Of a stretch of DNA of 64,000 nucleotides, positions 25,788-30,053 are shown in pieces. The notes below the pieces were generated by a model, which was not told where the DNA came from, did no database searches, and saw only the letters and a program-made list of their open reading frames with translations. Numbering within the stretch: position 1 is the first letter of the stretch; every line of letters begins with the position of its first letter. Source of the stretch: Tenggerimyces flavus (GTDB taxonomy: Bacteria > Actinomycetota > Actinomycetes > Propionibacteriales > Actinopolymorphaceae); assembly GCF_016907715.1 (NCBI RefSeq), contig NZ_JAFBCM010000001.1:2480001-2544000 (forward strand), read 5' to 3'. A program made the translations under genes and the position numbers.

Positions 25788-25923
25788 GCGCCCGTTTTGC
25801 GAGGGTCGTGCGAGATAGCGGTTTCTGGTGTGCTAGAAATTGCACTCTCTGTAGACGAACCACTACCCATCGTCATCGCGCGACCTTCCCCACGCGCGGA
25901 CTCCCACGCCCTGGAGCGGGATC

Positions 25924-28900
25924 GTGTCGTTCACCAACCCCATCTCTCGTCGGCTGCTGCGCGCCGGTTCCGCGATGGCTGTCATCGCCGCCGTCGGCTT
26001 CGCCGGCGCCGCGCCCGCGCAGGCCATCGCGCAGTCCATCGCGCAGACCAAGCCGAAGGCCGCCGCACCTGCTGACCCGAAGGTCCTGTTCACCGAGGAC
26101 TTCGAGAACACCGGCACCGACCCGGTCCGCCTCGACGCCTACCAGGGCAAGAGCCACGGCTACGTGGCCGACCCCGCGTGGCTGCAGGGCTGCAACGGCT
26201 GGGTCGCCTCCTGGCAGGCCCCGGCCGACGCCGCCGCTCCCGTCGCCGACTGCGGTGCCGCGAACTGGTGGAACCTGTCGCGCGGCCTCTCGTACTCCCT
26301 CGGCGCCCTGCACCAGAAGGCCGAGACCAACCACGGCGTGTCCGCCTACACCTACGGAAACCCGGGCGCGGACAAGGTGCAGTTCGAGACCAAGCAACCG
26401 ATCGCGCTGCCGACAAAGGGCCGGTTCGTCACGTTCTCCGTCGACGCCGCCGAGAACAGCTGCCACGCGCTCCACGCCGCGCTGAAGTTCTACCTCGTGG
26501 ACGGTGCGCAGTCGATTCCGACGTTCACCACGCCGATCGACCCGTGCACCGACCCGAACGCGAAGATCGTGCCGAGTCCGGCGAACAGCGTCGACTCCGG
26601 CCCGACCGCGACCCGCGCGGGGACGTACGCCGGCAACAAGGCCGTGCTGTTCGACGGTGACCAGCTCGGCATCCGGCTGGTGAACGGGCAGGGCAGCGGT
26701 GGCGGCAACGACGCGGCTTTCGACAACATCCGCGTGCTCGACGTGACGCCGAAGCTGGCGAAGGCGTTCGCGCCCGCGAATGTCGACGTCGGCGAGACCT
26801 CCCGGCTGACGTTCACGGTGACGAACACCTCCGAGCTCGCCGAGAAGGCCGACTGGACGTTCACGGACACGCTGCCCGAAGGCCTCGACATCGCCGGTGA
26901 CGGCGGCTTCACGTCGACCTGCGCGCCCTTCTCGTTCAGCCTGGACCACACCGGCGGTGTCCTGACGATGACGGGCACCCTCGCGGCTGGTCAGGAGACC
27001 TGCGAGGCGTCGGTGAACGTCGTCTCGAAGAGCCCCGGCACATACGAGAACTGCGCGAAGAACCTCGCGCTCACCGGCCTCGACGCGCCCGAGTGCGCCA
27101 CGCTCGAGGTCGTCGCGCCGCCCACGTTCCCCTGCGAGGTCTCGACTGTCTTCCTCTCCCAGGGCATCCCCACGGGCCTGAAGGCGCAGGAGTACAGCGC
27201 CGGCGGGTCGGACTTCGTGCCGGTCGGCCCGGCGAGCGACTGGCGGTACAACGCGATCGGTGTCAACCCCAAGGACGGCTACATCTACGGGATGAGCACC
27301 GGCCCCGAGGGCGGACACCAGCCGGGTCGGCTGCTGCGAATCGACGCGACCGGCAAGGTCACCAGCCTCGGCGCACCCCAGGGTGACGCGGAGCTCGCGG
27401 CCAACGGCAGCATCGTCGGCGCGTTCGACGACGACGGCACCTACTACTCGATCGTGGCGAACCACCTCACCAAGGTGGACGTGACCACGACCCCGGCGGC
27501 CGCTCAGGTGGTCGGCCCGGTGGCAGGCTGGACGCCGGCCGACTTCGCGTACGCCGACGGCTTCTTCTGGGGCCAGTCGCGCGTGGGCACCGTGACCACG
27601 CTCTACCGGCTGAACCCGGCCGACGCGAGCGTCGTGACGTTCACCTCGCCTGTGCAGAACGCCCCCGAGAACGGCCAGTACGGCGCGGCCTGGCGGTACG
27701 GCAACGGCAACCTCGGGTTCAGCGCGAACGTGACCGGCAACAACCACCAGATCGCGGTCGCCAACCCTGGTTCGGCGAACCCGACGTTCACGCTCGTCTC
27801 GACGGTTCCGGGGCCCGTTCCCGGCCAGAACAACAACGACGGCACCGGCTGCATCAGCAAGCCCGCCGACCTGGCGATCGAGAAGTCCGCCCCGTCGGCG
27901 GTCGACCCGTCCGGTGAGGTCCGCTGGACGCTGAAGGTGACGAACAACGGCGCCGGGATCGCCTCCGGCTTCACCGTCACCGACCAGCTGCCGGCCGAGG
28001 TGACCGAGCTGTCGACGCCGACGGTTGGCGCGAAGATCGACGACCACACGCTGACGTACAACGGCGGGCGGCTCGAGGTCGGCGACTCGGTCGAGATCGT
28101 GGTCGTCGGCAAGGCGCCAGCGACGTACGAGACCTGCTTCTCCAACAGCGCTTCGGTCACCGGGAACGAGAACGACCCGAACCCGGACAACGACAAGGCG
28201 AGCGTCAAGACGTGCACCGGCGGCGAGCCGGCGTACACGCTGACGAAGACCTCGTCGGCCGCTGACGGTGCCGTCAAGGCGGGCGACAAGGTCGTCTACA
28301 CGCTGACCGTCACCAACACCGGGAAGGCCGAGGTCACGCCGACCGTGACCGACGACCTGTCCGGCACGCTCGACGACGCCTCGTACAACGGCGACGCCGC
28401 CGCGTCGGACGGGCCGGCGCCGACGGTGTCGGAGCCGACGCTGACCTGGTCGGGCCCGGTGCCGGTCGGTGGCACGGTGACGATCACGTACTCGGTGACG
28501 GTCAAGCCGACCGCCGAGCAGGGCGACCACGTGCTGAAGAACGCGGCCAGCGGTGACGGTCCGATCCAGGACTGCCCGGCCAAGCCGTGCGCGACGACGA
28601 CCAACCCGGTCGCCTCGTACACGCTGGCCAAGACCGCGGACCCGGCGGCCGGTACGGCGGTCGAGGCGGACCAGAAGATCACCTACACGCTGACCGTCAC
28701 CAACACCGGCGGTGCTCCGGTGACGCCGACCGTGACCGACGACCTGACCGACGTGCTGGACGACGCCTCGTACAACGGTGACGCGGCGGCGTCGGACGGC
28801 TCGGTGCCGTCGGTGTCGGAGACGACGCTGACCTGGACCGGCGCGGTGCCGGTCGGCGGGACCGTGACGATCACGTACTCGGTGACCGTCCTGGCGTTCG

Positions 28901-29919
28901 ACGCGCAGGGCGACCACACGCTCGCGAACGCGGCGAGCGGTGACGGTCCGATCGACGGGTGCGAGGCGACGCCTTGTGTGTCGACCGAGAACCCGTCGGG
29001 TGGCTACACGATCGCCAAGTCCGTCGACCCGGAGAGCGGGACGGCCGTGTCGGGCGGCGACGTGCTGACGTACACGGTCGAGGTGCAGAACGTGGGCGCC
29101 GCTCCGCTGACGCCGACGGTGACCGACGACCTGTCCGCGGTGTTGGACGACGCCACGTACAACGGTGACGCCTCGGCTTCGTCCGGGCCGGCGCCCACGG
29201 TGTCGGGGTCGACGCTGACGTGGTCCGGGCCGCTGCCGGTGGGCGCGACGGTGACGATCACGTACTCGGTGAAGGTCCTGGCGTTCTCCGAGCAGGGCGA
29301 CCACCTGCTGAAGAACGTGGCGAGCGGCGACGGCCCGGTCTCGGGCTGCAAGACGGCGCCGTGCGCGACGACGGAGAACTCCTCGGGCGGCTACACGCTG
29401 AGCAAGTCGGCCGACCCGGCGTCCGGGGAGTCCGTCGCCGACGGGCAGAAGGTGACGTACCGCGTTCTGGTCGCCAACAAGGGTGCGGCGCCGGTGTCGC
29501 CGGTCGTGACCGACGACCTGTCGGGCGTGCTGGACGACGCCACGTACAACGGTGACGCCGCCGCGTCGGACGGCTCTGCCGTGGCGGTGTCGGGGTCGAC
29601 GCTGACTTGGTCGGGCACGGTGCCGGCGGGCAAGACGGTGACGATCACGTACTCGGTGACCGTGCTGTCGTACGACGACCAGCACGACCACAAGCTCGGG
29701 AACGTGGTCTCCGGTGACGGGCCGCTGCAGGGCTGCGAGGCCGGCAAGCCGTGTGCCCGTACGGACAACCCGGCCGCGAATCCTCCGGTCGGAGCGCGGC
29801 TGCCGAAGACCGGCGGGGAGCTCCTGCTGGTCGGCGGTGGCGCGTCGTTGCTGCTGATCCTGGGCCTGCTCGGCCTGGTGGCGGCGACCCGCGCCGGACG
29901 GATGCGGGCCAGCCGCTAG
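25924..29919 (+). CDS. LPXTG-anchored giant surface protein with DUF11-type tandem repeats
   Basis: A 1331-aa secreted, sortase-anchored protein. The signal peptide ends at AAPAQA near residue 36. A jellyroll-like domain follows (about 40-275), then a DUF11-like domain (DVGETSRLTFTVTNTSELAE), a beta-propeller-like region around 410-640 (NAIGVNPKDGYIYGM), another DUF11 domain, and four tandem repeats of 128-129 codons (about 771-1285). Each repeat contains TVTDDL, YNGDA, TVTITYSV and a Cys pair. LPKTGGELLLVGGG at about 1293 is the sorting signal, followed by a helix and a basic tail. GTG start with GGAGCGGG upstream. Probably an adhesin or stalk; a strong terminator follows. No sortase is visible in the window. 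Confidence 0.9.
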   Translation: MSFTNPISRRLLRAGSAMAVIAAVGFAGAAPAQAIAQSIAQTKPKAAAPADPKVLFTEDFENTGTDPVRLDAYQGKSHGYVADPAWLQGCNGWVASWQAPADAAAPVADCGAANWWNLSRGLSYSLGALHQKAETNHGVSAYTYGNPGADKVQFETKQPIALPTKGRFVTFSVDAAENSCHALHAALKFYLVDGAQSIPTFTTPIDPCTDPNAKIVPSPANSVDSGPTATRAGTYAGNKAVLFDGDQLGIRLVNGQGSGGGNDAAFDNIRVLDVTPKLAKAFAPANVDVGETSRLTFTVTNTSELAEKADWTFTDTLPEGLDIAGDGGFTSTCAPFSFSLDHTGGVLTMTGTLAAGQETCEASVNVVSKSPGTYENCAKNLALTGLDAPECATLEVVAPPTFPCEVSTVFLSQGIPTGLKAQEYSAGGSDFVPVGPASDWRYNAIGVNPKDGYIYGMSTGPEGGHQPGRLLRIDATGKVTSLGAPQGDAELAANGSIVGAFDDDGTYYSIVANHLTKVDVTTTPAAAQVVGPVAGWTPADFAYADGFFWGQSRVGTVTTLYRLNPADASVVTFTSPVQNAPENGQYGAAWRYGNGNLGFSANVTGNNHQIAVANPGSANPTFTLVSTVPGPVPGQNNNDGTGCISKPADLAIEKSAPSAVDPSGEVRWTLKVTNNGAGIASGFTVTDQLPAEVTELSTPTVGAKIDDHTLTYNGGRLEVGDSVEIVVVGKAPATYETCFSNSASVTGNENDPNPDNDKASVKTCTGGEPAYTLTKTSSAADGAVKAGDKVVYTLTVTNTGKAEVTPTVTDDLSGTLDDASYNGDAAASDGPAPTVSEPTLTWSGPVPVGGTVTITYSVTVKPTAEQGDHVLKNAASGDGPIQDCPAKPCATTTNPVASYTLAKTADPAAGTAVEADQKITYTLTVTNTGGAPVTPTVTDDLTDVLDDASYNGDAAASDGSVPSVSETTLTWTGAVPVGGTVTITYSVTVLAFDAQGDHTLANAASGDGPIDGCEATPCVSTENPSGGYTIAKSVDPESGTAVSGGDVLTYTVEVQNVGAAPLTPTVTDDLSAVLDDATYNGDASASSGPAPTVSGSTLTWSGPLPVGATVTITYSVKVLAFSEQGDHLLKNVASGDGPVSGCKTAPCATTENSSGGYTLSKSADPASGESVADGQKVTYRVLVANKGAAPVSPVVTDDLSGVLDDATYNGDAAASDGSAVAVSGSTLTWSGTVPAGKTVTITYSVTVLSYDDQHDHKLGNVVSGDGPLQGCEAGKPCARTDNPAANPPVGARLPKTGGELLLVGGGASLLLILGLLGLVAATRAGRMRASR
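28234..29778 (+). repeat. four in-frame tandem repeats with 387-bp period
   Basis: Inside the surface-protein gene, a 387-base unit recurs four times in frame. The codon TAC of the YNGDA motif falls at 28384, 28771, 29158 and 29545, exactly 387 bases apart. The unit boundary codon (TAC of YT[LI]xK) lies at 28234, 28618, 29005 and 29392, showing one codon missing from the first unit. Each unit is a DUF11-type Ig-like domain with a Cys-x-Cys-containing linker. High DNA identity between units suggests recent duplication or gene conversion. Confidence 0.93.
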
Positions 29920-29930
29920 CGGTAACCTGA

Positions 29931-29972
29931 CGAAGCCCGGCCCCGCGGTGACGATCGCGGGGCCGGGCTTCG
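29931..29972. terminator. strong hairpin terminator after the surface-protein gene
   Basis: A perfect 17-base inverted repeat: CGAAGCCCGGCCCCGCG (29931-29947) and its complement CGCGGGGCCGGGCTTCG (29956-29972), around an 8-base loop. It begins 11 bases after the surface-protein stop and is followed by CCTTGTCC rather than a T-run, as is common in high-GC actinobacteria. It separates that gene from eno. The remaining gap to eno (29973-30095) should contain the eno promoter; no clear hexamers are obvious. Confidence 0.88.
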
Positions 29973-30053
29973 CCTTGTCCTGGCCGCGATGGCTGTCTGC
30001 GATGGTTGCCACAATGCGGGTCGGTCCTCGGGCCTCGCACCAGGCGCGGCTAG

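Follow-up and report, generated by a model that had tools for sequence, protein, structure and literature searches.

A four-unit DUF7927 array is the probable crosslinked stalk of a fibrillar-adhesin-like surface protein in Tenggerimyces flavus

The window analysed here is a 64,000-nucleotide stretch of the Tenggerimyces flavus assembly GCF_016907715.1 (contig NZ_JAFBCM010000001.1, positions 2,480,001 to 2,544,000 of the forward strand). It contains a gene for a large surface protein with four in-frame repeats of regular length, which raises the question of what the array is and whether its regularity reflects recent duplication. We consider it very probable that the four units are CnaA-like DUF7927 domains forming the membrane-proximal stalk of a fibrillar-adhesin-like protein, with candidate Lys-Asn crosslinks and an LPKTG anchor, that they duplicated within this lineage, and that the gene was added between mazG and eno. 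Direct support comes from the domain architecture, family membership, residue triads, predicted fold, divergence and monophyly of the units, and from the absence of the gene from same-family genomes; bond formation, sortase anchoring and adhesion we infer.

The protein is encoded by a single open reading frame (Table 1). Four Pfam families score above their cut-offs in the 1331-residue product, namely DUF7927 (E = 1.4e-113, four stretches), DUF11, DUF7933 and DUF6923, as does the NCBIfam isopeptide-forming domain TIGR04226 (81.9 bits against a cut-off of 30). Tandem stalk domains, a criterion for fibrillar adhesins, are present as DUF7933, DUF11 and the four DUF7927 units. The first-pass annotation had described a surface protein in which a repeat stalk precedes an LPXTG-type tail, and this is borne out by the domain order and by LPKTG at codon 29800. 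There are 20 cysteines in the whole protein: four in the head, four in the DUF7933 region, two flanking DUF6923, two in the DUF11 region and two in each repeat. This even number in every module suggests that disulfides form within modules. In our interpretation the protein is a rod of the fibrillar-adhesin-like kind, composed of an uncharacterised head, a propeller-like DUF6923 module, a predicted six-domain crosslinked stalk and an LPKTG tail, with presumed roles in anchoring and adhesion. Such a rod would keep the head and the propeller-like module distant from the wall. An antisense open frame of 1379 codons (25873-30012, minus strand) covers the whole gene and most likely just mirrors its GC-rich coding frame.

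Table 1. Position of the surface protein gene, its domains and adjacent elements within the window.
Feature	Position	Strand	Details
Surface protein gene, 1331 aa	25924..29919	+	GTG start, GGAG upstream, TAG stop
Putative signal peptide, residues 1-34	25924..26025	+	inferred by eye, no prediction program
Head, residues 46-275	26059..26748	+	Cys 90, 110, 180, 208; weak jelly-roll hint (HpiC1-like)
DUF7933 Ig-like domain, residues 276-382	26749..27069	+	candidate isopeptide K280/D315/N380
DUF6923 propeller-like module, residues 410-644	27151..27855	+	Cys404 and Cys643 flanking
DUF11 (CLIPPER) domain, residues 649-762	27868..28209	+	candidate isopeptide K654/D687/N741
Repeat 1, DUF7927, 128 aa	28234..28617	+	candidate K775/D810/N873; Cys884, Cys889
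Repeat 2, DUF7927, 129 aa	28618..29004	+	candidate K903/D939/N1002; Cys1013, Cys1018
Repeat 3, DUF7927, 129 aa	29005..29391	+	candidate K1032/D1068/N1131; Cys1142, Cys1147; model mean pLDDT 94.6
Repeat 4, DUF7927	29392..29778	+	candidate K1161/D1197/N1260; Cys1271, Cys1277
LPKTG, hydrophobic stretch, Arg-rich tail	29800..29916	+	sub-threshold in TIGR01167 and PF00746
Hairpin, 19-bp, terminator-like without T run	29931..29972	+	z -6.0 for 81-nt stretch

The tandem array is real and far beyond chance. Tandem Repeats Finder delimited it at 28296-29704 (period 387, 3.6 copies, 77% matches) and an ungapped repeat finder recovered four copies of 300 nt, at 77% to the reference copy. As first noted, the YNGDA codons at 28384, 28771, 29158 and 29545 are spaced by 387, 387 and 387 nt, and one codon is missing from unit 1, which has 128 residues against 129 with the gap at unit position 13. 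Unit 4 has one additional residue between its two cysteines (CX5C against CX4C). The units had also been called nearly identical; four in-frame units with a period of 387 hold, but near-identity does not, as whole-unit pairwise identity is 71.1-78.4% for nucleotides and 62.8-70.3% for amino acids. The longest exact run common to unit pairs is 22-29 nt, and NG86 dS between units is 0.33-0.49. Since third codon positions are rich in GC in these genes, codon agreement was compared with the expectation from codon usage alone: at shared residues, units use the same codon in 70-79% of cases against 56-63% expected (z 2.1 to 4.2). Synonymous sites retain some signal of common origin, most of which is gone, and are well on the way to saturation. 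Judged by this divergence, the units are too different for recent duplication, and the recent unequal recombination that had been deduced from their regularity is replaced by old copies. The locus corrects a natural misreading, since tandem domains can be perfectly spaced without having been duplicated recently; the period would be maintained by domain size and fold while the sequence drifts.

The same measurements bear on whether this is a variable-length adhesin of the Periscope type, in which frequent recombination would keep repeats nearly identical and strains would differ in repeat number and in the distance of the head. Periscope Proteins, as described in PMC8201768 (SasG, Rib, Sgo_0707), resemble the window protein in that a stalk of tandem domains links an N-terminal head to a wall-anchor tail, and the exact 387-nt period is what such a reading would lead one to expect. 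The Periscope Protein study sought repeats over 50 residues with at least 80% identity and describes length variation as widest where repeat identity is highest. The units of the window lie well under that 80% threshold, with no exact run beyond 29 nt and synonymous sites well toward saturation, which makes the Periscope-type reading improbable for this array. Elsewhere in the family, domain counts differ and recent duplication occurs: two relatives that are whole within their fetched stretches have 9 and 7 domains (L054 and L055), and in another (L087, G215:C2, domains at residues 1280-1815) an 804-nt block of two repeats has been duplicated and its copies are 99.6% identical. The general idea of recent duplication and differing domain counts is therefore right for the family and wrong for the window array, and the family shows two regimes side by side, with aged arrays such as that of the window and freshly duplicated ones such as that of L087.

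To place the units, 228 near-full domains were compared. The window units are 63-72% alike mutually and at most 51% alike to any outside domain, and they form one clade with a support of 0.969. This mutual likeness and single clade indicate that the array grew inside this lineage, and not recently; its sequences describe lineage-specific but old duplications, in which four units would have arisen within the lineage and then diverged. A relative from the same order (L067, G310) carries the head, DUF7933, DUF6923 and a DUF7927 array in the same order as here, but has 10 array domains instead of four, and its units are at most 50% identical to those of the window. Longer arrays were found in L061 and L063, whose domains (at least 12 each) align one to one across species with a three-domain super-period, and in L062, whose array of at least 16 domains shares this higher-order period; all three counts are lower bounds as the open frames run off the fetched stretches. 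A scan of named genomes gave one distant relative (L002), and two scans of viral contigs gave no relative that tblastn confirmed.

All four units match the DUF7927 profile at 90.4-111.8 bits, far above its curated cut-off of 31, and these are the only four places in the 8.5-Mb genome where DUF7927 exceeds it. The array units are thus members of the DUF7927 family, and the kind of stalk that they form is already known. DUF7927, DUF7933 and DUF11 are isopeptide families according to Costa and colleagues (PMC12617251), and for DUF7927 (PF25549) that work predicts a Lys-Asn isopeptide bond with Lys-Asp and Lys-Asn separations of 36 and 100 residues. In the window, units 2-4 have separations of 36 and 99 residues, against 35 and 98 for unit 1. 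A Lys/Asp/Asn triad is present in all six Ig-like domains (the four DUF7927 units, DUF7933 and DUF11), with positions in DUF7933 and DUF11 chosen using hand-written patterns. In 226 non-window domains from fetched relatives, Lys is found in 194 of 196 ungapped cases, Asp in 205 of 226 and Asn in 194 of 226. The window units therefore resemble the published family in profile match, triad and spacing, and in both the bond is a prediction. Our literature search found DUF7927 and DUF7933 mentioned only in PMC12617251 and returned no mention of DUF6923.

The fold of unit 3 was modelled using AlphaFold2 with an alignment of 13 rows, six from the domains of the window protein and seven from L002. The model (pLDDT 94.6) has a CnaA-like fold that places Lys5 on strand 1, Asp41 on strand 3 (38-42) and Asn104 on the penultimate strand. 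Foldseek gave a single match with E <= 0.001, to 9IFR (9.1e-06), the solved structure of a CLIPPER (DUF11) domain that contains a Lys-Asn bond and belongs to a fibrillar adhesin of Acinetobacter. Under VIA-align, 9IFR (Z 12.9, rmsd 2.2, 114 aligned) was tied with the PrgB Ig domains of 8beg (Z 13.1, rmsd 2.4, 118 aligned). Antigen I/II and pilin domains came next, as did integrins at Z 11.9. Fold similarity alone is unspecific because integrin Ig-like domains reach this last score. The likeness to 9IFR extends to the strands that carry Lys (strand 1) and Asn (penultimate) and to two cysteines near the domain end, but sequence identity is 21-23%, the Pfam family differs, and the cysteine motif is CTTC there against CX4C or CX5C here. 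An earlier three-row model of repeats 2-3 was set aside (pLDDT 76.6; its Asn segment fell in a helix of low confidence), and fold matches of this two-repeat model were near noise level.

Taken together, family, triad and fold point to a multiply crosslinked stalk. The units could instead act simply as structural Ig-like spacers that lack covalent crosslinks: PMC12617251 describes some DUF11 domains without isopeptide signatures, and sequence profiles of the stalk domains gave neither a convincing relative nor a DUF7927 structure in the PDB. This is unlikely given that the triad occurs in four of four units and in most relatives, with its residues on the expected strands of the model. Under the crosslinked reading, each DUF7927 domain would, after secretion, most likely weld itself through an internal Lys-Asn amide between the first and penultimate strands, with Asp as catalyst, and the nearby cysteine pair may add a disulfide. 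DUF7933 and DUF11, being of the same class, would bring the total to up to six crosslinked stalk domains. With its crosslinks taken as predicted, the locus is a clear actinobacterial example of such a stalk; the actinobacterial character of the host can also be read from its gene content, GC content and sortase classes.

The LPKTG motif is followed by a hydrophobic stretch and an Arg-rich tail, which would attach the protein to the wall or membrane. This sorting signal falls short of the curated cut-offs of TIGR01167 (9.3 of 15.9 bits) and PF00746 (8.2 of 20) and is absent from the 29 LPXTG matches listed for the genome. Two consecutive basic residues in the tail are a criterion used in PMC13251363, and the tail after LPKTG lacks such a pair. 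The genome contains eight sortase-domain matches. An NCBIfam scan of five of these eight placed one in class E and one in class F above cut-off and none in class C, while the other three scanned sortases were below cut-off, two of them matching class F best and one class E. Class E sortases are described as preferring LAXTG in PMC5148588. Two nearly identical class-F-type sortase loci (L006 and L007; G000:7342054-7345470 and 6749132-6752548) lie in the same genome, and in each an LPXTG-anchor match immediately precedes the sortase domain in a different frame.

These results also weigh on the idea that the protein is not a monomeric fibrillar adhesin but a pilin assembled by sortase. The name of TIGR04226 refers to fimbrial proteins and the pilins BcpA, RrgB and EbpB are among the structural matches, but no other gene accompanies this one between mazG and eno, its neighbouring frames contain neither a sortase nor a second pilin, and the five scanned sortases (of eight) are best matched by class E or class F and none by class C. 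A pilin is therefore very improbable.

To characterise the genomic setting of the fibrillar-adhesin-like protein, seven same-family genomes were compared, with neighbour gene names assigned by reading the sequences and not from annotation. All seven keep the order lipoprotein, mazG, eno, divIC-like and DUF501, with a mazG-eno gap of 98-328 nt and without the gene, and none of the seven has a match to the protein. The simplest reading is that the gene was gained here rather than repeatedly lost elsewhere, and it would thus be an addition between mazG and eno. Upstream of eno, a segment common to relatives is retained (a 15-nt match to L075). A search for flanking duplications as a mark of insertion found a longest direct match between the flanks of only 8 nt.

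At the other end of the protein, the first-pass annotation had proposed a jelly-roll-like head and a propeller-like middle. The middle gains modest support from DUF6923, whose profile weakly matches glutamine cyclotransferase propellers (3mbr, E 0.0019), and the head weak support from a sub-threshold HpiC1-like match in 3 of 12 aligned heads (best E 9.7e-05). Neither Pfam nor NCBIfam has a family that scores above cut-off in the head, no known adhesive domain was matched, its profile gave no convincing relative in the PDB, and a search for it in phages found nothing. The head is present in 11 of 28 loci examined, followed by DUF7933 in all 11. In a phylum sample it occurs in 2 of 296 genomes, among nine candidates scored per genome in the matches listed, these two being the window's own genome and a source of the query alignment. 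Tentatively, the head may represent an undescribed ligand-binding family, possibly a calcium-binding jelly roll, that is always fused to DUF7933. Mounted on crosslinked stalks, it would move as a single-gene cassette and so be scattered unevenly among lineages, and in this genome it would have landed upstream of eno together with a terminator-like hairpin of its own; we hold this possible rather than probable.

Two further loci are of note. In one (L057, G010:C1 around 1278859-1279170), the homologue is broken by a single in-frame TAG between head and stalk. In the other (L100), a long hypothetical protein on a plasmid of the Gram-negative Pelagibacterium (NZ_CP101830.1) aligns to residues 55-1201 with 31% identity.
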